A stretch of 64,000 bases of DNA, taken from contig JAYMGJ010000298.1 in assembly GCA_037178675.1 (NCBI GenBank), positions 1-64,000 of the forward strand, written 5' to 3'. The notes below the pieces were generated by a model. The model was not told where the DNA came from, ran no database searches, and saw only the letters and a program-made list of their open reading frames with translations. The position numbers were made by a program, and so were the translations under genes. Of the stretch, positions 9,430 through 60,716 are shown in pieces. The stretch comes from Scleroderma bovista. Taxonomy: Eukaryota > Basidiomycota > Agaricomycetes > Boletales > Sclerodermataceae. Position 1 is the first letter of the stretch; each line of letters begins with the position of its first letter.

Positions 9430-10034
9430 GCTCTGTTTCATTCTTTCGAACCTAGCATAGCACCCTATTCCTCCAGGGAGCAGCATATACTCCAATCAAA
9501 CTTACTCCTGGAAAGCTCAGGAACCCTTTTGAGGGATGTGTCCAAGAAGCACAAGCACCACCTACTTGGAGTGCGCTTGCCGGAGGGCCTAAAAAGTTGA
9601 CTTGGAGTGAGTGTCAGGTCCTCGCCAAGAAGCAGGCAGATGAAGAAGAACAATGAAGCAAGGCTGCTGCTTCTGTGGTGGCTATGGAGCCAAAACCAGA
9701 GGTACCGCCTGTTAGTATCAATGTGTTGAACCCCTTCCCTTTCACCAATACCCTCTTACCTTAGCCTCTTCCGCCTGCACCTCCGCCTAGAACTCTCCTA
9801 CCACCAGTCCCTGTGTCAGAGCCGGAACTGGAGCCAGAGTCAGAAGATGAAGCCCCACCCACTCCTCCTCCTCCACCGCTGCCACCCCCACCACCAATGC
9901 CTTTAATGTCACCCCCTGTTCCTGAACAAGAAGAGGAAGAAGCTCCAGTAAGTTGATTGATGCGCTGACCTGAAGATGCTAACTGATCCCTTCGTAGGTG
10001 CGGATGGAAAAACTGGATTAGCGGTGCAATGCGT
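9430..10034 (+). pseudogene. Hypothetical multi-exon gene, 5' part (Pro/Glu-rich), split by LTR-A copy 2
   Basis: Open plus-strand frame containing APPTWSALAGGPKKLTW, ECQVLAKKQADEEEQ, NPFPFTN and a run of Pro and Glu (9770-9950). An intron-like GTAAGT...TAG (about 9949-10000) leads into VRMEKLD followed by TAG and RCNA. This is the N-terminal part of a basidiomycete hypothetical protein whose remainder continues at 12138. LTR-A copy 2 sits between them, with GCGT on the left and GCGC on the right. In-frame stops are present. Function unknown. Confidence 0.5.
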
Positions 10035-12137: not shown

Positions 12138-14111
12138 GCGCATGGTTCCTCAAGGCAGGTAATAAGCCTTAGATGAGCACTTTCAATGGGTAGTACTCAC
12201 CTGTTCTCTATAGTCATCCGAGTTCTCCTTTTGTCCTTCTCCCAAGTTCTCATTCAGGCCCACCCAAGAATCACTTGATGATGGGATTGGTGATTGAGGG
12301 ACACCCTCACAATCCCAGGGAGCCAACCAATCACTGCTCTTTTCCTATTCACGTCAATCTGCCCAACCCTCTTGCTCAAATGTGGGACAACTAGGCTCTC
12401 ACCTTTCTCATTCATCAGGACAAGGATCACGGCATGTGACTCCTTACCATGCCAGTACTGGTGTGGAACATTCTTCGCGTCCTGGTTGGTGAGGAGATGG
12501 TGCAACTGGCAGCTGCCAGCCGCTGTACTCACCTCAAACCCATATGGGTCATTCAAAAGGGTCATTTTCTGATCAAAACACCGAGTCTGTACATTCCCAC
12601 ATAGCCCAAATAGTTGCAGAAATCAGGCGAGTGTCAGCACATGTCACGAACCTAAACGAGATAGCGATGCAACATACCCAAACCTTGCAACAAGTTGTAG
12701 AGTGCCTAGACAAGATGGAGAGTGACTTGGCTGGCCTCCAAGAGGTGTGCACGAATGAAGATGCCAAGGGCATGAAAAAGTCTGGTGGGGCTTCAAGGGG
12801 CATCTCCAATGAGCATCCTACACTAAAGGTCTGTAATTGCATGTATCACAATAAAATCGCATGCTGAAGTCCTCAGCAGCCTGTTGTGCATTCCTTGTTC
12901 TATGAGATGTGTGGTGTTGAGATGACTGGTAGCAAGACGAAGCACACCGAAGAGCTTTGTGCAGTACAGCCACTGGCTAATGGAGAAGCATATTGCCATA
13001 TCGAGGATAAAGATGTCTGGCATCCTCACTGGACTAGCAAAATAGATGCCAAGGCCAATGCTGAATTCATCAAAGTGGTTGCTGATCGCATCTGGAGGGA
13101 TGAAGAAGTCAGCTGCCATCTCACTGAATGAATATATACTTATGTTTTGCACAGAGATTTCGCGTTGCCAACAAGGGGGTGGGTGAGATAAGCAATTCTG
13201 ACTTCAATAAGTCAGCAATCAATGATTGTGTGAAAAATTACTGGTGAAATATCCACAAGCAAGCCAACATGCACCTTGACCCAGAGAGGTATGAGAAGAC
13301 ACTGGATGTGGGCCACCACCGCTCACGTCGTCAGGCTGTAAAGTTCTTATCTTCATTAGTAATAATACAATGGTGACACATCTTTGACAGCTTACCAAGC
13401 CACGCAGACTAGCTGCCAAGAATCACTGTGCAGAGATCCAAATTCCAGTCATGGAGGCAATGGCCATGATCGATACTGACTTTGCAAGTGACGTCCAAAC
13501 ATGTGAATCTGACTTGGACTTTATGGGCAGCATGATAATGGAGCAGCGTTTCAAAGCTGGCCTTGGGGAGGCATCAAAGATGGCTGTAGGACTGACATGG
13601 CGCAGTCCAGATGTAAGTATAACTGTCGATGTGTACCTGTAATGAACATGCTCACCCGATATGGCAGTATGTTGCCTTTCTCTGTTGGCTCACATTCAAA
13701 GCCTGGGCCTCTAAGGAACCAGTGGTGGACATGCAGCATGTAGCAAACAACAAATCTGAAGCCACAACGAGTGAACACCCAAAGAAGAAGCGACAAATGA
13801 CAACAAATACTACCAAAACATTCAAAAAAAATATTGATGCACCACCCTCCAAATTATCAGAATGCTTGCCATCCATGACGAAAAGCACCCCATTCAAGTC
13901 AATGATCACACCATGGTGGTTGGAGGAGCATCTGGACTTCAAGACACTTGATGGTGCTGAATGGCTCCAGGGGTTCTGTAGTCGCTTGAAAGGCAATGAG
14001 CTTCATGCTGCTGATTTGGATCACTTGCAGGAACTCACTGTGTGGCATGAGGAAAAAGGGAGGACAAGGACCGGTGATGTGCAGCCGCATGCAGGGCCCT
14101 CTCAAGAGTAA
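12138..14111 (+). pseudogene. Hypothetical multi-exon gene, 3' part, lightly decayed
   Basis: Continuation of 9430-10034. An open Ser/Gln-rich frame (about 12300-12828) includes a coiled-coil-like stretch, VHSHIAQIVAEIRRVSAHV, and ends at a GT donor. Later exons are 12880-13107 (HSLFYEMCGVEMTGSKTKHT, DVWHPHWTSK), 13155-13337, 13391-13612 and 13668-14111 (YVAFLCWLTFKAW, TPWWLEEHLDFKTLDGAEW). All introns are GT-AG, about 47-55 nt, and keep phase. In-frame TGA stops at 12490-12492 and 13245-13247 sit where CGA (Arg) would fit. I recognise the pattern from many Agaricomycete hypothetical proteins but know no function. A terminal exon at about 14152-14250 is possible but out of phase. Confidence 0.6.
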
Positions 14112-20639: not shown

Positions 20640-23600
20640 TCAAATATTATTGAAGATCAGAAACTGACACATGCGGTTCCTCAGAATAATATCAAATATG
20701 AGTTTTTGCAATGTAATAGAAGCACAATCATGCTGCTGAAGCACCTGCTGAAGGCTGTGGAAAACATTGGCTTGTGTTCCAGAGTCTTCATATTTCTTGA
20801 CAGCAAATGCAATAACATCTTGGGGATTTCCCTTGGCCTGTAAATGGAAGTAGGAGTACTCATAAACAATGAGGCATCCTTTTCTCATTATGGTAAATAC
20901 TAGAAGGGCAATATAATTTGCTCACCAACACCATGAATGATGCACTTATGCATAGAAGAGACAATAGATCCAGGAAACATCAAAGGAACTTGGAAAGAAG
21001 TGTTAATATCAAGCATTTGCTAGGATTTGATTAGATATATCACTTTTAGAAATAAATAGAAATTCATCATACCATCTACAAAAATTAAGATATATAGAAA
21101 AGGTAAATATTGATAACACACTAATGCCTAATTGTCAAGGTGAGGAAAATGATGGACTATAGAAAATAAAACTAACCTGCTAATGAATTGAAAATGGGAA
21201 ATCAGAGACAATTTGGCAGAAAATATAAGATATGACCAACATCCTGATGACTGTTACATTAGATTATGAGATGATGTGTATGTTAACTTACTTGCTATAA
21301 GAAATGAAGAATTATAATGTGAGAACAGACCCAGCTACACCTGCCATGAAATCACTCACTTGCTGTCAAGCCAACAGGACCAGAGTGGCAGTGAAGGCAG
21401 TGAGAACAGACCCAGCTGCACCTGCCATGAAATCACTCACTTGCTGTCAAGCCAACAGGACCAGAGTGGCAGTGAAGGCAGTGAGAACAGACCCAGCTGC
21501 ACCTGCCATGAAATCACTCACTTGCTGTCAAGCCAACAGGACCAGAGTGGCAGTGAAGGCAGTGAGAACAGACCCAGCTGCACCTGCCATGAAATCACTC
21601 ACCAACTGTCAAGCCAACAGGACCAGAGTGGCAGTGAAGGCAGTGAGAACAGACCCAGCTGCACCTGCCATGAAATCACTCACTTGCTGTCAAGCCAACA
21701 GGACCAGAGTGGCAGTGAAGGCAGTGAGAACAGACCCAGCTGCACCTGCCATGAAATCACTCACCAACTGTCAAGCCAACAGGACCAGAGTGGCAGTGAA
21801 GGCAGTGAGAACAGACCCAGCTGCACCTGCCATGAAATCACTCACTTGCTGTCAAGCCAACAGGACCAGAGTGGCAGTGAAGGCAGTGAGAACAGACCCA
21901 GCTGCACCTGCCATGAAATCACTCACTGCCTGTCAAGCCAACAGGACCAGAGTGGCAGTGAAGGCAGTGAGAACAGACCCAGCTGCACCTGCCATGAAAT
22001 CACTCACTTGCTGTCAAGCCAACAGGACCAGAGTGGCAGTGAAGGCAGTGAGAACAGACCCAGCTGCACCTGCCATGAAATCACTCACCAACTGTCAAGC
22101 CAACAGGACCAGAGTGGCAGTGAAGGCAGTGAGAACAGACCCAGCTGCACCTGCCATGAAATCACTCACCCACTGTCAAGCCAACAGGACCAGAGTGGCA
22201 GTGAAGGCAGTGAGAACAGACCCAGCTGCACCTGCCATGAAATCACTCACTGCCTGTCAAGCCAACAGGACCAGAGTGGCAGTGAAGGCAGTGAGAACAG
22301 ACCCAGCTGCACCTGCCATGAAATCACTCACCAACTGTCAAGCCAACAGGACCAGAGTGGCAGTGAAGGCAGTGAGAACAGACCCAGCTGCACCTGCCAT
22401 GAAATCACTCACTTGCTGTCAAGCCAACAGGACCAGAGTGGCAGTGAAGGCAGTGAGAACAGATCCAGCTGCACCTGCCATGAAATCACTCACTGCCTGT
22501 CAAGCCAACAGGACCAGAGTGGCAGTGAAGGCAGTGAGAACAGACCCAGCTGCACCTGCCATGAAATCACTCACTGCCTGTCAAGCCAACAGGACCAGAG
22601 TGGCAGTGAAGGCAGTGAGAACAGACCCAGCTGCACCTGCCATGAAATCACTCACCCACTGTCAAGCCAACAGGACCAGAGTGGCAGTGAAGGCAGTGAG
22701 AACAGACCCAGCTGCACCTGCCATGAAATCACTCACTGCCTGTCAAGCCAACAGGACCAGAGTGGCAGTGAAGGCAGTGAGAACAGACCCAGCTGCACCT
22801 GCCATGAAATCACTCACTCAACTGTCAAGCCAACAGGACCAGAGTGGCAGTGAAGGCAGTGAGAACAGACCCAGCTGCACCTGCCATGAAATCACTCACT
22901 CCCTGTCAAGCCAACAGGACCAGAGTGGCAGTGAAGGCAGTGAGAACAGACCCAGCTGCACCTGCCATGAAATCACTCACATCCTGTCAAGCCAACAGGA
23001 CCAGAGTGGCAGTGAAGGCAGTGAGAACAGACCCAGCTGCACCTGCCATGAAATCACTCACCAACTGTCAAGCCAACAGGACCAGAGTGGCAGTGAAGGC
23101 AATGAGAACAGACTCAGCTGCACCTGCAATGAAATCACTCACTCGCTGTCAAGCCAACAGGACCAGAGTGGCAGTGAAGGCAATGAGAACAGACCCAGCT
23201 GCACCTGCCATGAAATCACTCACTCGCTGTCAAGCCAACAGGACCAGAGTGGCAGTGAAGGCAGTGAGAACAGACCCAGCTGCACCTGCCATGAAATCAC
23301 TCACCAACTGTCAAGCCAACAGGACCAGAGTGGCAGTGAAGGCAGTGAGAACAGACCCAGCTGCACCTGCCATGAAATCACTCACATGCTGTCAAGCCAA
23401 CAGAACCAGAGTGGGAGTGAAGGCAGTGAGAACAGACCCAGCTGCACCTGCCATGAAATCACTCACTTGCTGTCAAGCCAACAGGACCAGAGTGGCAGTG
23501 AAGGCAGTGAGAACAGACCCAGCTGCACCTGCCATGAAATCACTCACTGCCTGTCAAGCCAACAGGACCAGAGTGGCAGTGAAGGCAATGAGAACAGACC

Positions 23601-26114
23601 CAGCTGCACCTGCCATGAAATCACTCACCAACTGTCAAGCCAACAGGACCAGAGTGGCAGTGAAGGCAGTGAGAACAGACCCAGCTGCACCTGCCATGAA
23701 ATCACTCACTCCTGTCAAGCCAACAGGACCAGAGTGGCAGTGAAGGCAGTGAGAACAGACCCAGCTGCACCTGCCATGAAATCACTCACTGCCTGTCAAG
23801 CCAACAGGACCAGAGTGGCAGTGAAGGCAATGAGAACAGACCCAGCTGCACCTGCCATGAAATCACTCACTCCCTGTCAAGCCAACAGGACCAGAGTGGC
23901 AGTGAAGGCAGTGAGAACAGACCCAGCTGCACCTGCCATGAAATCACTCACATCCTGTCAAGCCAACAGGACCAGAGTGGCAGTGAAGGCAGTGAGAACA
24001 GACCCAGCTGCACCTGCCATGAAATCACTCACCAACTGTCAAGCCAACAGGACCAGAGTGGCAGTGAAGGCAGTGAGAACAGACCCAGCTGCACCTGCCA
24101 TGAAATCACTCACCCACTGTCAAGCCAACAGGACCAGAGTGGCAGTGAAGGCAGTGAGAACAGACCCAGCTGCACCTGCCATGAAATCACTCACATCCTG
24201 TCAAGCCAACAGGACCAGAGTGGCAGTGAAGGCAGTGAGAACAGACCCAGCTGCACCTGCCATGAAATCACTCACCAACTGTCAAGCCAACAGCACCAGA
24301 GTGGTGAATTATCTTATATCAATGTCCAAACCTAGTATAACCCTCTTACTGGAAACATTGGCATCCATGCAAGTATTCCACCTTCCAGCAAATCCTTGTG
24401 AAATGTTTCTCCCTTTGCCACATCTATGATGTGTCTGCAAACCATTAAAATATCATCTATCCTCCAGTTTGTCACATAATTCACTCACCCAATAGCAAAT
24501 TCAATATTCAGATCAAAATTGATTTGTTGTGCTGATATCACTAGCTTCTGTAGTTCAACCCCATCAAGTGCACTTGTGGTACATCTTATAAGTGGATCAC
24601 AATCTGCACCTTCTCTGTTCATACCTCCATAAAGCAGCACCATTAGCATACTCACAGGAAAGGTCCAGATGATATACCTTACCATGCAGTGACAGATAGT
24701 CCTTTGGTGGGTACTTGCACCCATTCAATTGGATTTTGATTTTTGTGCTAACCTCACTCAAAATTTGTTTTCCCAAGTCCCCAGCCATTTCCATTGCATC
24801 TTTCATTTGCATACCTTCATCTCTAAGCCTGCCAATTGCCATCCCCTCCATTGCATCAGCCTTTGTCAACAATACAATCACTGGGACTATACAATAATTA
24901 TTCAGACCATGTATTGCAAATCATAATGGAGATTCTCACCATGTCCAGTATTGCACTCATTGAAGAATTGTTCTTCTGGAGTCACAAATGCCCTATGAGA
25001 CTCATCCATTGGAATACAAAACCTGGATTCTGGAATTTAGCTACTTGATCAGATTCGGTGACATAGTCTCACCAGACGGCGTGGATCCGCTCTGCTAACT
25101 GCATTTTTGTCGCTCTGTCTGCGATGAATTTCTTCATCATCTCTAACTCACTCTCAGAGCCCGACTCGAATCCTCGTGAGTCGTGAAAGACGAAGCCTGG
25201 ACTGCTCCGAAAAATCAACTCATTCTCAATGTCATGATATCCTCTCTGAGCACTCTTAGTTAGTTGGTGTCATGTTCCAGAATCGTGAAACACACCTCCA
25301 GAGATCCCTGCACAACCACAGGATCAATCTGGGAATATTCATCCATTGCCTTCCAATATTGTGTAGCGAGACATCCTACCTTTTCACCTTCGGCATTGAA
25401 GACTTCGGGGAGCTCTGTGGTATTGCAGACACGCTGTAAGACAGTTGTTTTACCAGCATTGGATCTGCCGATGACGAGGATTCTAAAACGACCAATACGG
25501 TCGAAGTGATCTCTGACGGTCTTAGGATCCATGCGAAGCATATCATCAGCACCTAGAGAGTGGTCGGTCGCCATGCCATTAATGTACGGTCCATGATATT
25601 CACCTGCGCTGGAGCCTGGGTTACGCTGCTCAGTGTTTCTGACGTCCGCAGAATCCATGTGAAGCACATCATCAGCACCTGGGAGAGGAGTTAGTCGCCA
25701 CCTTGGTAATGCACGCCATCCGGACCATGATATCGGACACAAGGGACTCACCTGCACTGGAAATTGGCTGCTCAGTCTTGCTGACGTCCGCAGGGTCCAT
25801 TCGAAGTGTATCATTAGCACCTGGAGAAACAAGCCGGTCGTCATCTTGTCAATGTATGTTATTCGGTTCACGATATTGGACATAAGCACCCACCTGCGCT
25901 GCAGCCCGCATCACGCTGCTTAGGGTTTCTGACGTCCATAGGATCTATGTGAAGTACATCGTCGGCACCTGTAGAGAGGAGTCAGTGACCACACTGCTAA
26001 TGTATGCTATCCAGCCAACCATATATACTCACTGGCTCTGGGGTTTGCGCTACGCTTCCCCGTATTCCTGCATGGCAGAGAAGCCAAAACTTTTCTGACG
26101 ACTCTAGGAACCAT
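20640..26114 (-). CDS. GTPase gene A with a one-codon microexon array
   Basis: P-loop GTPase of the G-domain/AIG1-like kind; cellular role unknown. Ordinary exons (minus): 26033-26114, 25894-25968, 25752-25820, 25604-25678, 25380-25552, 25296-25328, 25073-25245, 24940-25022, 24683-24886, 24489-24624, 24350-24434 (396 codons, phase kept). Exons 2-4 are tandem copies of a 23-25 residue module (GADDVLHMDSADVRN). G1 is GRSNAGKTT, G3 DSRG, G4 TKAD. Then come 37 microexons in the array 21360-24278, followed by microexons at 21292-21294, 21177-21179, 21122-21127 (6 nt) and 21073-21075. The last exons are 20926-21019 and 20640-20878 (VGCLIVYEYSYFHLQAKG...FDIILRNRMC). Start ATG at 26114 in context ACCATGG. 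Caveat: two array microexons are 2 and 4 nt (23710-23711, 22818-22821); with full inclusion the 4-nt one supplies a TGA. Paralog: 41467-46020. Confidence 0.8.
21360..24278 (-). repeat. Tandem array A: 37 near-identical introns separated by one-codon microexons
   Basis: Period 81 bp. On the coding (minus) strand each unit is a 78-nt intron starting GTGAGTGATTTCATGGCAGG and ending TGTTGGCTTGACAG, followed by a free triplet. Plus-strand triplet starts are 21360 + 81n to 22737, then 22818 (4 nt), 22900 + 81n to 23629, 23710 (2 nt), and 23790 + 81n to 24276. Sense triplets are only CAA, TTG, GCA, TGG, GGA, GAT, CGA and CAT. Introns are almost invariant while the triplets vary. The run TTG, GAT, GGA occurs twice, so blocks of units were duplicated. 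A candidate branch site CTCAC lies roughly 35-40 nt before the acceptor. Confidence 0.9.
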
Positions 26115-41466: not shown

Positions 41467-44400
41467 ATGGCTCTGCCATTCAGGAACTCTGGGCAGCGTG
41501 CTTCAGGTTCCAACGAAGCGGGTGAGTAGTAGCTGGGTCTAGTCACCACGACTGTATGTTCATTATTCAAAGACATAGTGGCAGACGTTCTGGATCCTGC
41601 GAAAGTCCAAAGACACTTCGACCGCATTGGCCACTTCAGGATCCTTGTCCTTGGCAGGTCAAATGCAGGTAAAACAACACTCTTGCAGCGTGTTTGCAAT
41701 ACAACAGAGCTCCCGGGGATCTTCAATGCCAAAGGTGAAAAGGTCAACTACCTCATCCTGCCACAGCACATGTTCCTTCAAGGTACTGATGCATGACATT
41801 TCGCAGATTGATGCTGCGATTGTGCAGGGGTCATTAGAGGCGAGCTACCCTACTAGGAGCTTGTTCAGTGACATGAACTAGACTAACTCCATTCAGAGGG
41901 GATATCATAACATTGAAGATGAACTGATTTTCCGAAGCAACCCAGGTTTGGTATTTCATGACTCACGAGGATTCGAGACTGGATCTGTGAAGGAGCTGAA
42001 CTTGATGAAGGACTTTGTCACTGATCGAGCATGCACATTGAAGTTGGAAAAGCGTATCCATGCCATCTGGTGGGATCACAACTGCAGTTGTGATATATCA
42101 TATAAACTTGATGGTGAACTAGGTTTTGCATCTCAATGGCTGATTATGAGAGGCCAATCTTGGCTGCAGAAGAGAAGTTCTTCAATGAATGCAATACAGG
42201 AAATGGTAGGCTACCTCATTATTTGGAGTGGTACCACTATGATTCTGATATGATTATTGGGGAGTACCTGTGATTGTTGTGTTGACAAAGGGTGATGCCT
42301 TAAGGTTGCCTGCTCTCAACAAAATCATGAGACAAGAGGGTTTGACAATGAGAGAAGCAAAGCCAAGGGTTGAAGAGTTTTCAGCAGAGATGTTAAGTGA
42401 ACTGTGGGCAAGAATTGAAAGCCAGTTGAGTGGCTGCAATTATCCTCCAAAGGCCTATTTGTCAACAGCCAGTGAGTCATGGATTGACTCCATATTATGT
42501 TGATACTAATATGGACATGTCAATGTAGATATGAATCAAGAGGGTGCTGATTGTGGTTCGCTCCTAAGATGCACAACAGATGCTCTTGATAAGGTGGAAC
42601 TGCAAAAGCTAGTAATTTCAACTCAGCAAGCCAACATCATTCTTAATATTGAATACTCAGTCAAGCAGTGAGTGAGACTGACATATCATAATGTGCTGAC
42701 ATTGATACTGTGCAGAGCACTGTTATACTATGTGGTGCAAAACAAATTTGACAAGAAACTCATTGAAAGGGACATGATAAGCTGGATGCCATCTAAGGTT
42801 GGGCAAACATTTACCTTGGTATGCCATCATAGAATTGGGCTCTAACTATTATTATTGCTGGGTTGGCATGATAGTATGTGAGTAATTCCAAGTCAAATTC
42901 AGCTGGTTCCCTTCTCACTGGCCTCATCCCCACTCTGGCCTTGTTTACATGACAGTGGGTGAGTGGTTTCATGCCAGGTTCAGCTCGGTCCTCTCTCACA
43001 GTCCTCACACCTACTCTGGTCCTATTTGCTTGACAGGTAGTGAGTGATTTCATGTCAGGTCCAGCTACTAGGTCATTTCTCACTGACCTCACTCCCACTT
43101 TGGTTGTGTTGGCTTGACAGTTGGTGAGTGATTTCATGCCAGGTCCAGCTGGGTCCTTCTCATTGTTCTCACTCCCATTCTGATCCTGTTGGCTTGAAAG
43201 GAAGTGAGTGATTTGTTGCTAGATCCAGCTGGGTCCCTTCTCACTGTGCTCACTCCCACTCTGGTTTTGTTGGCTTGATAGAGAGTGAGTGATTCCATGT
43301 CAGATACAGCTGAGTCCCTTCTTGATTCTCCTCACTCTTTCTCTGCTTCTGTTGGCCTGACAGTTTGTGAGTAATTTCATGCCAGGTTCAGCTGAGTCCC
43401 TTCTCACTATCCTCATTTTTGTTTGCTTGACAGGAAGTGAGTGATTTCATGCCAGGTACAACTGGGTCCCTTCTGACTGTCCTCACTCCCATTCTGGTCC
43501 TGTTGGCTTGACAGGAGGTGAGTGATTTCATGTTAGGTCCAGCTAGATCCCATCTGACTATCCTCACTCACTCTCATTCTGTTGACTTGACAGAGTGTGA
43601 GTGACTCTTTCATGCAAGGTTCAGCTTGGATCCCTTTTCACTGTGCTCACTCCTACTCTAATCCTGTTGGCTTGACAGAGAGTGAGTGATTTAATGCCAG
43701 GCCTAGCCAAGTCCCTTCTCACTGTCCTCACTCTCACTCTGATCCTGTTGGCTTCACAGGAAGTGAGTGATTCCATACCAGGGCCAGCTGAGTCCCTTCT
43801 CACTATCCTCATTTTCACTCTGGTCTTGTTGGCTTGATAGGAAGTGAGTGATTTCATGTCAGGTCCAGCTGGGTTCCTTTGACTGTCCTCATTCACACTT
43901 TGGTCCTGTTGGCTTGATAGGCAGTGAGTAATTTCATGCCAGGTCCAACTGGGTCCCTTCTCACTGTTCTCACCCACACTCTGGTCCTGTTGGCTTAACA
44001 GTGGGTGAGTAATTTTATGCCAGGTCCAGCTACCCTTCTCATTGTCCTCATTTCCATTCTGATCCTGTTGGCTTGACAGGATGTAAGTGATTTCATGTTA
44101 CATATAGCTGGGTCACTTCTCACTATTCTTCTTTCCACTGTGGCCCTGTTGGCTTGACAGGATGTGAGTGATTTGATGCCAGGTCCAGCTGGGTCCCTTC
44201 TCACTGTTCTCATCACACTTTGATCCTGTTGGCTTGACAGAAAGTGAGCATTTTCATGCCATGTCCAGCTGTGTCCCTTCTCACTGTCCACATTCCAACC
44301 TTGGTCCTATTGGCTTGATAGAGAGTGAGTAATTTCATGCCAGGTACAGCTGGACCCCTTCTCATTGTCCTCACTCCAACTCTGGTCCTGTCATCTTGAT

Positions 44401-46020
44401 AGAGAGTGAGTAATTTTATGATAGGCCCAGTTGGGTCCCTTCTCACTGTCTTCACTCCCACTTTGGTGCTATTGGTACAACAGAGAGTGAGTGATTTCAT
44501 GACAGATATAGCTGGATCCCTTCTCACTGTGCTCACTCCCATTCTGGTCCTGTTGACTCAACAGTTTGTGAGTGATTTCATGCCAGGTACAGCTGGATGT
44601 CTTCTCACTGTCCTCACTCTCATTACGGTCCTACTGGCTTGATAGGAAGTGGGTGATTTATGCCAGGCCCAGTTGGGTCCTTTCTCATTGCTCTCACTCT
44701 CACTTTGATCCTCTTGGCTTGATAGGCAGTGAGTGATTTCATGCCAAGTCCAATGGGATCCCCTCCCACTGACCTCACTCCTGGTCCTATTGGCTTGATA
44801 GGCAGTGAGATATTTCATCTCATGTCCAGCTTGGATCCCTTCTCACTGTCCTCACTCCTACTCTGGTCCTGTTGGCCTGACAGTTTGTGAGTGATTCTGG
44901 CCAGGTACAGCTACTAGGTCCCTTCTCACTGTGGCCTTGTTGGCTTGACAGGATGTGAGTGATTTCATGCCAGGTCTAGTTGATGCCATTCTCACTGTTC
45001 TCACTTCCACTTTGGTCCTGTGGGCTTGACAGGAAGTGAGTGATTTCATGTCAGGTTGAGGTGGCCTTCTCACTGTCCTCACTTCCACTCTGGTCCTATT
45101 GGCTTGGCAGTTTGTGGGTGGTTTTATGCCAGGTCCAGCTAGGTCTCCTCTCACTGTTCTGATTCCCACTCTGGTCTTGTTGGCTTGATAGACAGTGAGT
45201 AATTTTATGCTAATTCTAGCTGTGTCTTTTCATTGCACCTTTTCCCACTCTGGTCCTATTGGCTTTCCAGAATGTGTGTAATATTCATTCCAGATCTGAT
45301 ATAATTCTAATTACATTTGCATGCCATACTCCCATCTTTTTATTATTAGCAAGTAAGTTCATCAGTACAATTCTCTTCATACAAATATGGTGTGACCAAA
45401 CTTACAACAATGTCCTCAGGATGTCAGGATGTTCTTTTGTTCTGACACACACTTATTGACTTGTACCTTCCATATGTTTGCACACTTAGAATGTAAGCTA
45501 TTCAATTTGTCAGTTATTTATGTTCATTTGCTTATTCTTCTAGAACTTGGTATGTTATTTATATCTATTTCCTGGAACATGTCAATATGACTGTCCCTTA
45601 GATTGTGAGACATCACTTCTTTTATTAGAATTTAACTGATGTGTTCTGTGATCTAACAGAGAGACTCTGATCTTGATATTACATCTGATTCATTACCCTT
45701 AATGTGTCCTTTTTTCATGGTTTCCTCAATGCACAAGTCAATCGTGCATGGAGCTGGTGAGGAAGATCACCATGTCATCTATACCCCCTAAACAATTCAA
45801 AGGATGTATCCTGGTTTTTGAATACTCCTACTTCCTTCTACAGAAAAATGGAGATGCAAGAAATACCCTTAATCTTGCTGTAAAGGAATACCAAAGCTCT
45901 GGGACCCAAGCTACTGTTTGCAATGCTCTTCAGCATGCCATCAAGGAACATGGTAACAACTGTGATATTTTAATGGAGGTCATCATTGATATCATTCTAA
46001 ATAACCATATGTGTAAGTGA
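41467..46020 (+). CDS. GTPase gene B with a one-codon microexon array
   Basis: Paralog of gene A in opposite orientation; role unknown. Ordinary exons: 41467-41521, 41579-41742, 41807-41839, 41897-42069, 42123-42205, 42265-42471, 42529-42667, 42716-42818 (319 codons, phase 0 at the end). G1 is GRSNAGKTT, G3 DSRG, G4 TKGD. The intron after 41839 has a GC donor (GCGAGC). Then 36 microexons (42875-45604; 35 of 3 nt, one of 6 nt) and two last exons, 45660-45756 and 45803-46020, ending RGC-type text GAGCILVFEYSYFLLQKNG...DIILNNHMCK and TGA. Total about 460 residues, no stop. The start at 41467 is chosen by homology; an upstream ATG at 41434 ends quickly. The N-terminal module repeats of gene A are absent. 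ATGT|GTAAGT at the end may be another donor. Confidence 0.82.
42875..45604 (+). repeat. Tandem array B: diverged introns with invariant 3-nt microexons
   Basis: Microexon starts and triplets: 42875 TAT, 42956 TGG, 43037 GTA, 43121 TTG, 43201 GAA, 43282 AGA, 43364 TTT, 43434 GAA, 43515 GAG, 43594 AGT, 43679 AGA, 43760 GAA, 43841 GAA, 43921 GCA, 44002 TGG, 44080 GAT, 44161 GAT, 44241 AAA, 44322 AGA, 44403 AGA, 44484 AGA, 44565 TTT, 44646 GAA, 44726 GCA, 44802 GCA, 44884 TTT, 44952 GAT, 45033 GAA, 45111 TTT, 45192 ACA, 45271 AAT, 45350 CAA, 45420 GAT (weak donor GTCAGG), 45490 AAT, 45544 AACTTG, 45602 ATT. Every triplet follows AG and precedes GT. Intron lengths range from 51 to 82 nt, many not multiples of 3. 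The last five introns no longer resemble the repeat yet keep the pattern. Confidence 0.9.
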
Positions 46021-46329
46021 TTCTCTTCAGGATTACATAGGGTGTCTAATGATGTTCATTAGCAAAGAAGTTTCTTTAACCATACTTGAAGGTTTTCTGT
46101 GTCCATATCAGTTGTTTTTCAGGAATTTGCTATGTTTTACATCATGTACCTATGCTGTGACATTCTCTTGTATGCATTGCTACTGTCACAACCAGTTCTC
46201 CTGGGTTGTATACTGGGGAACAGGTGGACAGAATCACTAGCATGAACAGGACTCATCTGAGCATTAGTGAAGGCTGTAGAGTTTAAAAGTTTGGTCTGGT
46301 CTTTTTCATCAGCAACTTGACAAAAGTTC
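46021..46329. other. 3' flank of GTPase gene B
   Basis: AT-rich, no coding content recognised. Could contain an additional terminal exon if the GTAAGT at 46013 is used as a donor. Confidence 0.35.
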
Positions 46330-47365
46330 TGAAGGTCTGAAAAAGTCTGATCATCTGAAAAAAACTGATATCAGAAAAATAATCTGATGTACTGAAAAAA
46401 ACTGGGGGTCTGCTGATCTGAACACCTGAACATCTGAGAGTCTGAAGATATCTGATATCAGAAGTTTTCAGAGATTTTCAGACATTCAGATCATCAGCCA
46501 GTCAGAACAGTAGATTCCCAGATATTCTCAGAATCTCAGACTATCAGATATCCAGAATAGCAGACTACCAGATACTATCAGAGTCTCAGATTATCAGAAG
46601 CTCAGAAAAACAGATCACCAGAATCTCTCAGAACTATCAGACTATCAGACACTTAGAACAGCAGATTACCAGAAAATCTCAGAACTCTCAGATGGTCAGA
46701 TCTCCAGAACAGCAGAATACCAGATACTCTCAGAATCTCAGTCTGTCAGACCTTCAGACCAGCAGACTATCAGATACTTTCAGAGTCTTATCAGATATTC
46801 TCAGAATCTCAGACTGTTAGGCCTCCAGACTACCAGATACTATCAGACTATCAGACATCCAGAAACTCAGAATAACAGATTACCAGAAATTCTCAGAACT
46901 ATTAGACTATCAGATATTCAGACCAACAGACTACCAGATATTATCAGATTATCAGATTATCAGAAACTCAGAACAGCAGGTTACCAGAAAATCCCAGAAC
47001 TCTCAGACCATCAGACATCTAGAATAGCAGACTATTAGATATTCTCCAAGTCTCAGTCTGTCAGATCTTCAGACCAACAGAATACCAGATACTCTCAGAG
47101 TCTCAGTCTGTCAGACCTTTAGACCAGCAGACTATCAGATACTTTCAGAGTCTTATCAGATATTCTCAGACTCTCAGACCTCCAGAGGAGCAGACTACCA
47201 GATACTCTCAGAGTCTTATCAGCTATTCTTAGCATCTCAGACTATCAGATCTCTAAATTAGAAATTTTCAGAACTATCAACTGTCAGACATTCAGACCAG
47301 CAGACTATCAGATATTCTCAGTCTCAGACCTCCAGAACAGCAGACCTCCAGATGCTCACAGACTA
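46330..47365. repeat. TCAGA-rich satellite, unit about 50 bp
   Basis: About 1 kb built from variants of CAGACTACCAGATACTCTCAG, AGTCTCAGACTATCAGA and CTCCAGAACAG, with an inner rhythm of TCAGA about every 10 bases. Heavily diverged with stops in all frames. It starts with looser TCTGAAAAA-type units (46330-46450). Located just downstream of GTPase gene B; nothing similar lies downstream of gene A. Confidence 0.85.
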
Positions 47366-54340: not shown

Positions 54341-56114
54341 ACTTATTTACTTTGGCTTTGCAATCAAGTCACTCAGTGAAGTAAGCAAGCAAGTAAATTT
54401 TATTAAGTCATCTAAGTAATACAAAGTTGGCTAAGTAAGGTGTGGGGGGGTCACCACTGCTGCTGTCCTCGTCATTGTCATCCTTGCTGCTGTTGCCATT
54501 GCTGCTGCTGCTGCTGGACAATGATGTTGCCATCAATGCTGGGGGTGGGGGTCGTCATCATTGTCGTTGTGGACAATGCTGGAGGTGGGGGTGGGGTTCA
54601 TTGTTGTCGCCATCAACGCTGATGCTGGGGGTCGTTGTCATCATGGACAAAGAGGTGGGGGTGGGACTCATTGTCGTCAACACTGAAGGATGCTGGGGGT
54701 CATTGTCATCATGGATGAAGAGGTGGGGGTGGGACTCGTCGTCGTTGACACCGAAGGTAGGGGTGGGGGTCATCATTGTTGTTGTTGTTGTGTCTGACAC
54801 TGGAGGTGGAGGTGGGGTTCATCGCTGTCGATGCTGATGCTGGGGGTTGTTGTCATTGTGGATGACACTGGAGGTAGAGGTGGGGGTTGTTGTTGTTGTT
54901 GTCACCGTCGCTGTCAATGCTGGAGGTGGGGGTGGGGGTGGGGGTCATCGTCGTCGCCGGTGACGCTGGAGGTGGAGGTGAGGGTCATCATCGCCATTGA
55001 CACTGGAGGTGGGGGGTCGTTGTTGTCATGGACAATGCTGGAGGTAGAGGTGGGGGTTGTTGTTGTTGTTGTCGCCGGTGACACTGGAGGTGAGGGTCGT
55101 CATTGCCATTGACACTGGAGGTGGGGGTTGTCATCATCGTCACTGTTGACGCTGGAGCTGGGAGTGGGGGTGGGGTCGTTGTTGTGGGGTGGTGGTGGTC
55201 TGCATCATTGACGCTGCTGGGTGGTGGTCGGCAATGTAGGCGCTGTGGCTGGGGATTGGTGATGGTGAAGGCAGAACAGGACTTAGAGAAATTTTGAAGT
55301 GTTGTGATTTGTAATCAAAATCACAACACTTCAAAATTTCTCTAAGTCCCATTCTGCTTTCCACCACTGCTGACGGCGATGACAGGTAAGCAATGCCCCC
55401 AGATCAATGATGATCACCACTGACGACGACACCAGTGGCCACCCCCTCCTAGCTCCAGCATTGACAGCCGTCCACCACCCATCAACGATGACAATGATGA
55501 CTCCTCCACCCCCAGCTCCAGCTCCAGCGTCAACAATGACGGTGACCCCACCCCCACCCCCAGCTCCAGCGTCAATGGCAAGGACCCCCACCCCACCTTT
55601 GGCATTGATGGCAACAATGACTGTCCCCATCCCCAGCTCCAGCAACAATGGCGATGACGACCCCTACCCTCCAGTATCAATGGCGACGACGACAGCTCCA
55701 GCATCAACAGTGACAACAACGACCCCCAGCTCCAGCGTCATCCATGATGACGACAATGATGACCCCCACCTCCACCTCCAAAATCAACGGTGACAGCGAT
55801 GAGCCCCACCCCCACCTCTTCGTCCATGACAACGATGACCCCCACCCCCACCTCCAGTGCTGTCCACGATGTCGACGTCCACGATGTCAACCCCCCACCC
55901 TCAGCTCCAGCGTCATCCATGACGACGACAATGACAACCCCCACCTCCACCTCCAGCATCAATGGTGACGGCGACAAGCCCCACCCCCACCTCTTCATCC
56001 ATGATGATGACGACCCATCCCCACCTCCAGCGTCGACAGCGATAACAACTGCCCCCATCCCCACCCCACCTCCAGCGTTGACGGCGACAGCAACAACCCC
56101 CAGCATCAACATCG

Positions 56115-56153
<39 letters not shown>

Positions 56154-56438
56154 ACGACAACCCCCAGCATCGGTGATGACAGCATCACCGGCAACGTCGT
56201 TGACCAGCAGCAGTGGCAGCAGCAATGGCAGTGAGGTCAACGACCAGCAGTGCAGTAGTGACGAGGGCAGCAGCATTGGTGACACCCCCCCCCTCTACTT
56301 TTCTTAGCATACTTTGTATTACTTAGATGTCTTAATAAAATTTACTTGCTTTCTTACTTCCCTGAGTGACTTAATTGCAAAGCCAAAGTAAATAAGTTAG
56401 ATTAAGTACATTTTAAGATGCCTGTAGTTTTGCTGATG
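54300..56438. mobile_element. Giant fold-back element (2.14 kb imperfect palindrome)
   Basis: The outer ends are inverted copies over about 150 bp: the left starts CATCAGCAAAACTACAGG (54300), the right ends with its complement at 56438. They agree with few mismatches and small indels to about 54450 and 56290. Between them the left arm is a degenerate GCTGGAGGTGGGGGT-type minisatellite mixed with GTC/ATC triplets. The right arm is its inverted counterpart (ACCCCCACCTCCAGC type). The centre is the perfect hairpin at 55279-55349. No transposase and no clear target duplication. Long ORFs here are by-products of triplet repeats. Confidence 0.82.
55279..55349. repeat. Perfect central hairpin of the fold-back element
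   Basis: A 32-base stem (left arm 55279-55310, starting GGACTTAGAGAAATTTTGAA; right arm 55318-55349) with the 7-base loop GTAATCA. No mismatch in the stem. The first 24 bases recur, with one extra T, at 58075-58098 in the neighbouring element. Confidence 0.95.
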
Positions 56439-56439
56439 A

Positions 56440-56716
56440 AGGTGGTGGTCTGCACAGGGAAGGTCTAGCCTGGAAGAAGGGAGAAGGAGCTGTAGGTAAC
56501 CTCAGTAGTCTGGCAAGCTACTGTATATTAGTATGTACCTGTAGTGTAACTACAAGGTATCAGTAAGTGTATGTGGTGGTTAGTAGATGGTACTCACCCT
56601 CAGTATGCTGGCAAGCTACTGAGGGAACTATAGTAATAGTAACTCTACTGTATGTGCGATGTATGCTTATGTAAGTAGGTAAATATACCACAACAATCTG
56701 TTTATAACTCCACTGA
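56440..56716 (+). repeat. Dispersed repeat R2, copy 2
   Basis: Direct repeat of 14411-14693, starting immediately at the right end of the fold-back element (GGTGGTGGTCTGCACAGG). Ends near GTTTATAACTCCA. The abutment may mean one inserted next to the other. Confidence 0.65.
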
Positions 56717-56918
56717 CATGTCCAGTACCTGAGTCTTGTCCAGATCTGTCCAAATATATATTATGTACATTATGGATAATTGTGCACAGTTATGTCACGG
56801 TGCTGTACCATAAGTGTACAGATTTGTACAAATGGGGACCCACCTGTACCACTGTAGCAACCATAGCCAACTGTAGCTGGCAGTACAGCTCAGCATAGGG
56901 ACTTAGGGTTTTGCTGAT

Positions 56919-57055
56919 GTAGTATATATACTGTGCAATCCAGCACCCAGACCATTCGAGCTCATCTTGGGTCTTTGCCCTAGTACTCACATCCTATCTT
57001 CCTCTCAGAGTCGCGTGTGTAGGGTCCTTGGTGTTCTTTGCCTAGGGTCGTCTCA
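56919..57055 (+). mobile_element. Truncated LTR-C fragment (inverted)
   Basis: Plus-strand 3' end of LTR-C: AGTATATATACTGTGCAATC, GAGCTCATCTTGGGTC, ending GCCTAGGGTCGTCTCA. About 135 of 371 bp; the 5' part is missing. Confidence 0.75.
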
Positions 57056-57420
57056 ATTGGCAGGCCAATTGGTGGATGGAACAGGGTGCCTGCTGCTCCT
57101 TTGTTGACAATGCTCTTGAGGAGGTCTCTGGGTATATGCAGCATGGCAGACCATTCTTCAATGGCAGTTAGATTTGCATTTTAGAGGATTGTGGACAGCT
57201 GGCGCCAGAAGACATCAGCAAACCAACCCTCCCCTGGACAGTACTGGCCAGTACTGGACAGCTGTCCCAGACTGTCCCAAACTGTTCCATAATACTTATA
57301 CAAGCCAACAGTACCAATATCTTTACTGTCTGTACTTAGCTTTCAACTATCTTAATTCACTCAATGGTCAGGTTAATCAGTTTATATTAATTGTGTAGTA
57401 CAAACAATAAATATTATGTA
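57056..57420. other. No recognisable feature
   Basis: Plus frame briefly reads QANWWMEQGACCSFVDNALE but no family recognised. AT-rich toward the fold-back-like element. Confidence 0.3.
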
Positions 57421-58635
57421 CTAATGGCAGTGGTCAAGGTGGTAGCTGGTGTCATCATCAATGATGGTGGTGGCATGTGGTGGCATCATTGCTGGTGATG
57501 GGGTGGCCATCAACAGGTGGTGGGTGGGTGGTGATCCCATCATCAACACGGGGGGAGGTGACGTCATCATCATCGTTGTTGGTGATGGGGTGGCCATGGT
57601 CGCTGATGGTGGCAGCGTCATCGTCAATGCTGGTTGTGGGGTGGTGGTGGTGGGTCGCTGATGGTGGCAGCATTGTTGTCGACGCTGGTTGTGGGGTGGT
57701 GGTGGTGGGTCACTGATAGTGGCAGCGTTGATGACGCAGGTGGTGGTTGTGTCATTGTTGATGCTGGTTGTGGGGTGGTGGTGGTGGCCACGTCATCGTC
57801 GATGCTGGTCATGGTGGTGGTTGCGTCAAAGGCAGTGGTCATGTCATCGTCAACGTTGGTGGTTGTCATGTCGCCATTGACACTGGTGGTGGTGGCCATG
57901 TCGCCGTTGATGTTGGTGGTGGTCACATCACCGTCAATGCCAATGGTGGTTGCATCGTTGTTGTCGCTGATTGTAGGGTGGTGGTGGTGGCCACGTCGTC
58001 GTCATCGTCGCTGGTCATGGTGGCTGTCAGGTGGTGGTTGACACGTGGTGGTGGATGGAGAGGATAAGGATGAAGGACTTAGAGAAATTTTTGAAGTGGG
58101 TGTGTGTGCGCATGTTTGTGTACATGGTTATATCAGCATATTGAACTACCAACATTTCCTAATAGTATTTACCACGTCACTACCCGCCTCACCCACAGCC
58201 ACCCCACCAGCATTGTCGATGCGACCACCCATCAGTGACAATGATGATGATGATGACCCCACCATGGATGACAGCAATGAAACTAACCACCACCACCACC
58301 ACCACCACCACTAGCATCGTCGACCAGACAATGATGATGATGGCTAGGCCACCACCATCACCCATCATCACCAGCGTCGATGACAACCACCAATGCGAGG
58401 TCAACAACGACCTCACCACCAATGTCATCGACATGGTCACCGACGACAATGACAACCCCCCACCACTATCCCCCGCATCGATGGTGGCGACGCAACCACC
58501 CACATCCCCAGTGTTGTCGACGTGGCCATTAACAACAATGACGATGTCACCATCAACATTGTCGATGTGGCCACCGACGACGATGACAATGACCCCCCAT
58601 CACCATCCCCAGTGACGACATGACGATGTGACCAC
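57421..58635. mobile_element. Second fold-back-like element, minisatellite-armed, cut by LTR-A copy 3
   Basis: The left part (57421-58070) is a GGTGGTGG/GTCATCGTC degenerate tandem repeat, the right part (58190-58635) the complementary CCACC/GACGATGAC type. Near the middle, 58075-58098 matches the core stem of the fold-back element at 54300-56438. The arms are less symmetric and there is no perfect central hairpin. The right arm ends at LTR-A copy 3. ORFs in it are triplet-repeat artefacts. Confidence 0.6.
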
Positions 58636-60716
58636 TGTCACGCACCAAACAGGTTTGGTACAGTGAACATGGAAGATAACACCTATATTGAATGATCCTT
58701 ATGTGAAGGATAAGCACGACAGACCCTCATCATAGCCATCTATCACACAAGACGACTATCCTGATGCGAGAGATGAATGCCAATGCAGACAGTCATCTAT
58801 CGCACGAGAACCGCCGAGAAGCAGAAGAAACTGAAGGAATAACGTCAATTGTGGTATGAGAAAGGAATGCACACGTCTGCAGTCCAACTCCCATACCAGA
58901 ACGATCAAAGAAGCCAAAGAATTGATGGAGAAACGAAGGAGAAAGAGAAGAAATGATTTTTAGCGCCCAAATGTCATTTTTAGGCACCCAGTGCCAGCAT
59001 TCCGATATTTTGAATAGCTCCATCGTTTCTGAAGCTATCAGGCACGTGACTATACCGTCAGAGAGCCTAGAACGTGGTCTATCTGCCTGTCAAGTTCCGA
59101 CGCAAATCCGTTCATTTCCCACGGAGATATCCCCCCCGCAATCCAGACGTTCGCTTCATCACTCACTATGGAGTCTGTATTTTCTCTGGATCATTTCTCC
59201 GCTATTGCTGCAGATCTCCACTATGTCCTGCTCTTAGGACAGCCTCTCCCAGAGTTCCTGTGCACTGCCTGGCACATATCTTCCCAGCCTGCTCCCTCAG
59301 TCCCTCTCGTTCTTGGTCAGGGTGTTCTCCTCGTCAGTCCTGCGTCAAGGATGTACTTTGGTCATCTTAGGTCTATTGTCAAGCTTGAGAAGTCTTCTCT
59401 GGTCGTCTCTGTGTCCCCTGAGCCCTCAGCCTATGGTCCCTTCCTCCCAGATACTTGCCATGTCCATCTTCCTCTGTCGTTCGTCTCACTTCCCTGGATG
59501 CGTTGAATTCAATACTCTATCCGCTTCCCTACTTTCAGACGACGTCCCCCAGCACCATGACAGTTATTCCCCCCACTTTATAGTGCTATTAGGAAGAACC
59601 CTCTCTTGTTCTTTCCCAGAAGAGAGCTCGTCAAGGGAGCCCATGGTTGCGCTTCAGCGGTGCTAGAACACATGCACTATACCTTAGTGTATGCTGACCC
59701 CCCCAAAAAGACCTCTGGACCCCTGGTACCCTTCTTGTGGCTGTTTTGTCTTGGATCAATCCCCCTATTAATCTCAGATCTTCCCCATTGTTGTCCCATC
59801 AAATTCCTGATGGTACACAGCCCCCCATCAAACTTCTTAGGCTGTGCATCAATGACTCCTTCTGCTGTGCAGTGACTCATCCCTTGCTTACTGATGCTCT
59901 CTTGTCATCAGTATTACTCTATCCCTTTCGCATTTTTGGTATATTACTCAGCTGATGACTCACTCCCTTACCAATCAATCTTGTCATGCAGCTTACTCAT
60001 TCCTTTACTCAGCAGCTTATTCATGCTTCCTATGCTTACTCATTCCTGCTTATCCCTTGCTTACTGATCGCTTACAAACCCCTTACAAAGCTCTTACCAA
60101 TCCCTTACCAATCCTTGACAAATTCTGCTTACTCCCTTCTCTTTTTGTACTTTAATGCTGTGCCCCCCCATGTATTTAAACCCCTGGGCTCAGCCCAGTG
60201 AAAAAAGACCCAATTGCACGAAATTATCCCTCTCTCAGACTCTCTCAATCAGTCCTTGTAGGCTTCAGTGAAGGTCTAAAGGCTCAATATTGTCAAGTTT
60301 ATCCAAGTTATTCAAGATCTATTCTTTATACTAGGCTCAAGCGGAGTCTAGGCTTCATACCAGTCAATCTTCCTCGCCTCTGGACATCAGAGGCATCCCT
60401 GCCCCTTTGCTGCACCAATCTCTAGGTGTAGTATCGCTGTTTCAGTCTCAGTCTACCCAATCCCCGCTTTGACACTTCCTAGGCTTTAGGAAGAGTCCAG
60501 ACCCCTATCCCCTTCGTCTTCTATTACTCCTGTACCCCAGGAGTATCCTGCATCACCGTCTGCATCACCCTGTTGGTGTAGATCCCCTTTCCCCCTCCTC
60601 AGCATATCCTCTCTGGACACCGCAGAGGTAAAACCACCACTCGCACATTTTTGTAGTCCTTTGTTGGTGTTGTGTTTAGGTTATTACTCCGACCCAAATC
60701 CACACTTTGACTCACA
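58636..60716 (+). mobile_element. LTR-A copy 3
   Basis: Starts TGTCACGCACC, ends TTGACTCACA; close to copy 1, with a deletion and substitutions near 60250-60400. TATA-like box at 60173-60180. Flanks CCAC and CCGA do not match, so there is no target duplication; either recombination between copies or a lost partner is likely. Confidence 0.82.
59168..59506 (+). CDS. Unknown U3 ORF in LTR-A copy 3, shortened
   Basis: Starts MESVFSLDHFSAIAADL as in copy 1 but ends early at TGA after LPWMR, where copy 1 has CGA. Otherwise nearly identical. Function unknown. Confidence 0.35.
   Translation: MESVFSLDHFSAIAADLHYVLLLGQPLPEFLCTAWHISSQPAPSVPLVLGQGVLLVSPASRMYFGHLRSIVKLEKSSLVVSVSPEPSAYGPFLPDTCHVHLPLSFVSLPWMR

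Follow-up and report, generated by a model that had tools for sequence, protein, structure and literature searches.

The window analysed here is a stretch of 64,000 nucleotides from the Scleroderma bovista genome (assembly GCA_037178675.1, contig JAYMGJ010000298.1, positions 1 to 64,000), and our subject is a gene on its forward strand, gene B, in which a predicted GTPase domain is followed by a long run of sites that each frame a single codon between an AG acceptor and a GT donor (Table 1). A first reading made from sequence only had proposed 36 such AG-NNN-GT sites at 42875-45604, with no stop among their codons; all 36 are present on the + strand, and none is a stop. Of the predicted exons, 35 measure 3 nucleotides (nt) and one, at 45544, measures 6 nt. 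A regular expression gave 34 of these sites, to which a position weight matrix (PWM) scan added 43201 (GAA) and a later scan added 45428 (GAT), for which 45420 is an equally good alternative. The first 31 sites sit in a tandem repeat of period 81, at a unit spacing of 68-85 nt and with no unit missing (42875-45271); the last five lie in unique-looking sequence. The end of the preceding exon had been placed at 42818, which is probably wrong: we place it at 42797, because paralogous genes have their donor, a GT everywhere except L044 (GC), directly after the residues WMPSK, WMPYK, WMPFKQ or WMPYLE, in phase 0, as read by eye. The array lies between an exon ending in WMPxx and a conserved C-terminal domain. 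The first one-codon site is TAT in gene B and in three paralogous arrays (L012, L016 and L020), a fixed start ahead of the variable part, and a degenerate TCAGA-type short repeat of ~1 kb (46320-47350) lies just 3' of the predicted stop.

The product of gene B is predicted, from its sequence relatives, to be a P-loop GTPase. Among the best 120 of 725 matches, the closest relatives of the conceptual protein are GTPases of Scleroderma citrinum and S. yunnanense, followed by those of Pisolithus and Astraeus; the spliced reading reaches a best identity to Scleroderma GTPases of 82% over 71% of the query among the matches listed. The Pfam family MMR_HSR1 matches with an E value of 0.0004 and 20.9 bits, below the cut-off of 21.9. 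The C-terminal exon resembles, by eye, the C-terminus of the Pisolithus proteins P0055, P0065, P0073 and P0084.

Table 1. Features of genes B and A in the window
Feature	Coordinates	Strand	Basis or remark
GTPase-domain exons of gene B, with ordinary short introns	41573..42667	+	frames read; outer limits inferred
G1 motif GRSNAGKTT, gene B	41653-41679	+	
Final conventional exon 5' of array B, ending ..ALLYYVVQNKFDKKLIERDMISWMPSK, phase 0 end	42717..42797	+	conserved in paralogues (tblastn)
Leading intron of array B	42798..42874	+	
Repeat-like part of array B: 31 one-codon sites (YWVLERFEESREEAWDDKRRRFEAAFDEFTN), introns ~78 nt	42875..45273	+	
Degenerate 3' tail of array B	45350..45604	+	CAA 45350, GAT 45428 (or 45420), AAT 45490, AACTTG 45544, ATT 45602; individually weak
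First exon 3' of array B (RDSDLDITSDSLPLMCPFFMVSSMHKSIVHGAG), phase 0 start	45660..45756	+	similar exons downstream of paralogue arrays (tblastn)
C-terminal domain exon of gene B (GCILVFEYSYFLLQ..NNHMCK, stop)	45803..46020	+	boundaries inferred by eye
GTPase exons of gene A, same family as gene B	24359..25640	-	tblastn
Array A (gene A): 37 PWM-scan units plus sites 21294, 21127 and 21075	21075..24280	-	hypervariable codons between nearly identical introns
C-terminal exons of gene A, 3' of its array	20664..21013	-	tblastn; approximate limits

The same one-codon layout recurs in dozens of related GTPase genes of this genome. Across the whole 51.8-Mb assembly, the exact motif GGCTTGAYAG-NNN-GTGAGTGATTT has 672 matches and its reversed control has 0; four matches are found with 1-2 nt in place of NNN and two with 4-5 nt, and NNN itself is TAA or TAG 0 times and TGA once. 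The 672 matches are not independent events, since the motif copies share ancestry and some of the contigs that carry them are near-duplicates. We sampled the window and 36 further loci (L009 and L011-L045; L001-L008 and L010 were dropped as duplicates) using a PWM scan that required AG and GT and left the gap between them free from 0 to 15 nt. This yielded 38 arrays with 1303 sites, a lower bound for the sampled loci (the scan misses some units), and the count includes two arrays that are not independent (L045, with nine units, the same as the tail of B, and L041, a near copy of L039). Exactly 3 nt separate acceptor and donor at 1289 of these sites; the remaining gaps are of 2 nt (four), 4 nt (three), 9 and 5 nt (two each) and 0, 8 and 6 nt (one each), three being other multiples of three. 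Each array contains 9 to 76 sites in tandem, with one codon framed about every 81 bases between similar, often near-identical stretches of ~78 bases, and of the 1241 introns shorter than 110 nt, 168 have a length not divisible by three. Upstream of 36 of the 38 arrays there is a conserved WMP exon; of the other two, one (L045) is a fragment and one (L019) starts at a contig end. In many paralogues (for example, L016 near 2900, L018, L022, L029 and L031), and not in gene B, the leading intron contains a conserved AG^GTGATT or AG^GTAATC, a zero-length site, acceptor directly followed by donor, that looks like a recursive-splicing site.

Splice signals and the 3-nt slot stay intact despite ~15% decay of the introns around them. 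Array B introns have a mean identity of 85.6% to their master sequence, and GT, +5G and AG are intact in 30 of 30. Over the decayed arrays (mean identity to master 0.84-0.86), GT and AG are conserved at 100% and +5G at 96-100%, with other positions at 60-100% (no interval was excluded for B and L023, and 7 of 168 were excluded for L042-L044). Since the scan itself requires AG and GT, it is the continuous tiling of array B that makes it a fair case for their conservation. The codons obey a grammar of their own: among 1289 array codons, NNC occurs 4 times, NAG 12, GTN 9 and TNA 7, compared with 66, 26, 19 and 16 in the 302 codons of the ordinary exons of B, and the ratio of CAA to CAG is 205:2 in the arrays versus 8:4 in those exons. 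NNC, NAG, GTN and TNA are each expected to weaken the donor or to create a competing splice site, and this grammar is what independent splicing of every unit would predict.

Hypervariable codons stand beside near-identical introns, with codon differences up to ~670-fold above intron differences. In L009, introns differ at 0.001 and codons at 0.664 per site (one variant base across 28 introns, with codons differing pairwise at 66% of sites); in array A of the window the values are 0.0067 and 0.681. The most decayed arrays converge (B, 0.248 for introns against 0.644 for codons; L023, 0.184 against 0.178; six units each). Pairs of units with identical 156-nt intron flanks have codons that differ at 0, 1, 2 and 3 bases in 389, 380, 389 and 586 cases, respectively. 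We therefore reject the idea that codons in the young arrays diversified by point mutation once the units had been duplicated in tandem, because identical flanks carry codons 0-3 bases apart and because the 28 introns of L009 show a single variant base. In most arrays, intron variants present in a single copy form the largest class, and within clades the consensus introns are identical in 10 of 12 pairs, the other two pairs differing at 2 and 3 of 78 positions.

Copies of these genes differ from one another by whole units. For 39 of 43 within-clade pairs, no run of codons is held in common beyond chance (the longest run is reached by more than 10 of 200 shuffles); L026 and L027 have flanks 99.1% and 96.1% identical, yet their longest common run is reached by 105 of 200 shuffles, as expected by chance. 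Four pairs depart from this: L018/L019 (flank 99.6% identical, six common codons), L022/L036 (four common codons), L025/L033 (99.4% identity over 363 nt, six common codons) and L039/L041, which are exactly one unit, a His codon, apart. In the first three pairs the longest common run lies at the 3' end, which suggests a polarity of turnover. Internal block duplications of 6-16 codons are present in 7 of the 38 arrays (reached by at most 1 of 100 shuffles), and the choice among synonyms differs by clade (CGA or AGA for Arg, GCA or GCT for Ala, TTG or CTT for Leu). We infer that unit types have been passed down and exchanged within clades, and not remade by point mutation.

A further contig, C127, is a copy of the window contig (98% and 99.5% identity in the two stretches compared, away from array A), either a second haplotype or a recently duplicated copy. 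The C127 version of array A (L009) is flanked by sequence 94.7% and 96.9% identical to that in the window, and the two arrays have no codon run in common beyond chance (200 of 200 shuffles reach the longest run). The C127 copy of array B is interrupted by ~20 kb of other sequence (from L010 5470 to L045; C127:108969 to ~129200), with the break after the match to window position 44183 and before the match to 44480, the start of the compared stretch; this copy is also without 33 nt (window 44725-44757).

A protein from outside this genome bears on whether the codons reach mRNA. P0017 is a 453-residue homologue on a 2346-base contig whose source tag, lgn, probably denotes assemblies of public read archives. 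Its GTPase domain is uninterrupted, and the region that is intronless there is split into several tblastn pieces in L011 and L025. The frame runs from WMPYLQ into SYKSTKLSLLALKESFEKESKEKLEKEKQLWWKSNSWEKSKELELKVDEWWSKKSEMGCFADEVDKLEDWWLSKLSSS (SYKSTK..LSSS, 78 residues) and from there into VSDFMAGPAGC..SSLPLWSCCLDR; the consensus introns of the K clade translate as VSDFMAGPAGC in frame 0 (11 of 11) and, read in the second frame, as SSPPLWSCCLD (10 of 11). The corresponding exon of L011 stops at the equivalent point (WMPYIE^), and its first microexon likewise encodes Ser. The cDNA-like P0017 thus has a long peptide exactly at the array position and then a retained array-type intron in phase 0, the pattern that incomplete splicing of such an array would give. 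A second protein from outside this genome, P0098 (467 residues, 1695-base contig, Pisolithus-like by eye), ends in a Q/E/Y/R-rich tail at the array position. The string VS[DE][FL][MIV] occurs in 5 of the 120 listed proteins, namely P0017 and the Pisolithus models P0067, P0079, P0088 and P0095, which read into intron-like sequence just after WFPxx. The deposited relatives that we examined either end near the array or pass over it, and a search for full-length transcripts with the C-terminal part of gene B returned one match, P0121, apparently an unspliced reading frame. The proposal that gene B carries a run of microexons is supported by the array family, by the conservation of frame and splice sites, by the codon grammar and by P0017; inclusion of the microexons in mRNA is supported by this one cDNA-like homologue but not proved.

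The predicted array peptides are strongly biased in composition to Q, E, L, R, F, W, Y, A and K. An amphipathic, heptad-like rhythm had been read into array B, and this is not supported: its helical moment (100 degrees) is no better than that of shuffled sequences (z 0.08 when the 31 repeat-like codons are taken, and 0.53 with all 37). Pooled over 32 arrays there is weak periodicity at 80 and 90 degrees (Stouffer z 2.2 and 2.1), and L019, an array with block duplications, is the sole strong outlier (z 5.0). AlphaFold2 models P0017 (from a 30-sequence alignment) as a GTPase domain plus helices, at residues 344-381 and 384-431, with a block pLDDT of 71-86 over 351-430. Foldseek matches this model to the mitofusin, BDLP, EngB and IRG (IIGP1) GTPases, with a best E value of 4e-7 and a query TM score of at most 0.32 among the best 50 matches.

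We favour, with a probability of roughly 0.8, the reading that these genes form a GTPase family whose post-GTPase stretch is written as tandem AG-codon-GT units, each a predicted one-codon microexon, spliced into a hypervariable linker. Several observations weigh against it. Ten of the 1303 sites are off-frame and one has no exon (0 nt), and six off-frame matches occur genome-wide under the exact motif. Among the array sites, array A has one 2-nt and one 4-nt unit, which cancel each other, L009 has one 2-nt unit and L014 two, L018 has a 4-nt and a 5-nt unit, and L025 has one 4-nt unit (three of the four 2-nt cases look like homopolymer errors, with GA read in place of GGA). In L019 (contig C512), four units have the acceptor AA instead of AG; skipping them would keep the frame, and the AA-acceptor unit has apparently spread by block duplication. 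The last five sites of array B (45350-45602), whose degenerate introns had been held to keep the pattern, do exist, and they are individually weak as evidence because the loose pattern gives further matches in the same sequence, including a TAA at 45354. Stop codons are rare among the 1289 array codons (4 TGA and 0 TAA or TAG, versus 183 expected from base frequencies), but TTA and TCA, which are sense codons, hardly occur either (3 of 1289), since a TNA codon placed after AG creates a cryptic GTNAGT donor; with TNA and NAG avoided generally, the scarcity of stops is weakened as clean evidence of translation. The 32 pooled arrays show no general helical periodicity (at 100 degrees, Stouffer z 0.1, or 0.4 when repeated with fewer shuffles). 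The 78 residues of P0017 could in principle sit in an ordinary exon of its own species, and 10 of 11 matches among its relatives cover just 25-40% of the C-terminal query. Finally, the Pisolithus models P0055, P0065, P0073 and P0084 run from WFPx into the C-terminal domain without an array-like peptide, which is what skipping of the whole array, or lack of an array, would give.

The short C-terminal matches and the Pisolithus models also favour the best-surviving alternative, which we nevertheless consider improbable: that the array is a minisatellite within one ~2.8 kb intron that is removed whole, with AG-NNN-GT inherited from a founder unit and the codons meaningless. The units are tandem repeats (73-76% matches in B, 96% in A), their common ancestry means that the constant gap is partly inherited, and skipping of the whole array would keep the frame. 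A minisatellite of this kind sits poorly, however, with GT and AG at 100% in decayed arrays in which other columns fall to 60%, with an NNN that, outside the most decayed arrays, far exceeds the introns in variability and yet keeps the splice grammar and the length of 3, and with a P0017 that has 78 residues at exactly the array position, followed by an array-type intron. We rate as slighter still the chance that splicing of the microexons serves chiefly for regulation or as a decoy, through slow splicing or intron retention, and that the peptide itself is unimportant; P0017 does keep one intron and is truncated by it, and many tandem introns would be expected to slow splicing, but the strong amino-acid bias and the exact 3-nt length of nearly all sites would be needless in a pure decoy, and the large excess of codon over intron differences also speaks against it. 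Least likely of all is an introner burst, in which near-identical mobile introns were inserted after each codon of a pre-existing ordinary exon, so that the codons are old and the introns new: nearly identical introns with mostly single-copy variants beside diverse codons would fit, and introner-like elements are known in fungi (PMC4457414), but we know of nothing that would cause phase-0 insertion at intervals of exactly 3 nt, codon usage that departs so far from the ordinary (NNC 4/1289 versus 66/302; CAA:CAG 205:2 versus 8:4) disfavours insertion into an ordinary exon, blocks of whole units have been duplicated, and closely related gene copies differ in their codons.

If the arrays are indeed series of microexons, each would be spliced codon by codon into a linker ahead of a likely C-terminal domain, and the predicted linker would often differ radically from one gene copy to its close relatives. 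The introns would be homogenized by unequal exchange and gene conversion among them, which would also shuffle the codons in frame, the introns being the likely recombination substrate for this codon-by-codon shuffling; since each microexon consists of one complete phase-0 codon, the gain, loss or exchange of a unit would alter the protein by whole codons with the frame kept. Selection likely maintains linker diversity, perhaps for the recognition of self, non-self or parasites by the GTPase, a role drawn by analogy with the HNWD receptors discussed below and not a result. We give about even odds to the wider proposal that this is a eukaryotic diversity-generating system at single-codon resolution, in which the codon is the exchangeable cassette, the introns are the recombination handles, and the linker of an immune-like GTPase is rewritten between copies and haplotypes without loss of frame. 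Such a system would be a natural one that shuffles protein sequence codon by codon through intron homology, and a new answer to the problem of receptor diversity. If transcripts confirm the splicing, a spliceosome that joins 30-80 one-codon exons in succession would break the usual assumptions about exon recognition, and gene finders would miss the array segments.

Elsewhere in the window, a dispersed repeat lies at 10030-12140, with pieces at 4228-6284 and 58636-60673; it scores at ~40 places genome-wide with 92-97% identity, and in L026 a copy of it lies between the WMP exon and the array. Several short tandem repeats with periods of 3-112 occur at 54580-58575.

We found no gene with tandem one-codon exons among the papers listed by searches of open-access literature, which were not all directed at this layout and took in no bioRxiv preprints and few subscription papers; absence is not thereby proved. 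Hypervariable minisatellites mapped by their variant repeats offer an analogy, in that their tandem units are likewise shuffled between alleles and one end is the more stable. They differ in that the hypervariable site here is a codon between splice sites that are intact in decayed arrays, and the unit content is not unconstrained, as it would be in a minisatellite without coding function, since splice dinucleotides and codon grammar are both constrained. Schistosome microexon genes (MEGs) obtain protein variability from many tiny exons, and MEG exons are longer. The accessible part of PMC5825161 mentions no tandem intron repeat with single hypervariable codons for the MEGs. Fungal introner-like elements (PMC4457414) are likewise spliceosomal introns multiplied in one genome, and the copying of near-identical introns many times is found here too (consensus identical in those 10 of 12 within-clade pairs), whereas in the arrays sampled here the introns lie head-to-tail, at fixed spacing and within one gene family. 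Exons of one codon or less are known singly: a 3-bp exon in Drosophila homothorax and a 1-nt exon in Arabidopsis APC11 (PMC7392893, PMC4674806). The sites here are similarly short, 3 nt in 1289 of 1303 with the canonical AG and GT that the scan required, but there is one such exon per gene in those cases and 9 to 76 in tandem in ours.

The nearest precedent is the HNWD family of NOD-like receptors (NLRs) of Podospora anserina (het-d, het-e), in which, according to PMC12222747, WD40 repeats are kept alike by concerted evolution, a few hypervariable sites are under diversifying selection, and the repeats are polymorphic in copy number and between alleles. The likeness lies in highly identical tandem repeats with hypervariable sites, a combination found here in the young arrays (L009, L017, L018 and array A of the window) and not in B or the other decayed arrays. 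The proteins differ, in that the Podospora genes encode NLRs and ours a predicted P-loop GTPase (Pfam gives the conceptual B protein weak MMR_HSR1 and Arf matches alone, and no NLR plus WD40 architecture). The repeats differ as well: as far as that source describes it, the HNWD repeat codes for a folded WD40 unit, whereas here ~78 of 81 bases are predicted intron and the variable codon alone is coding.

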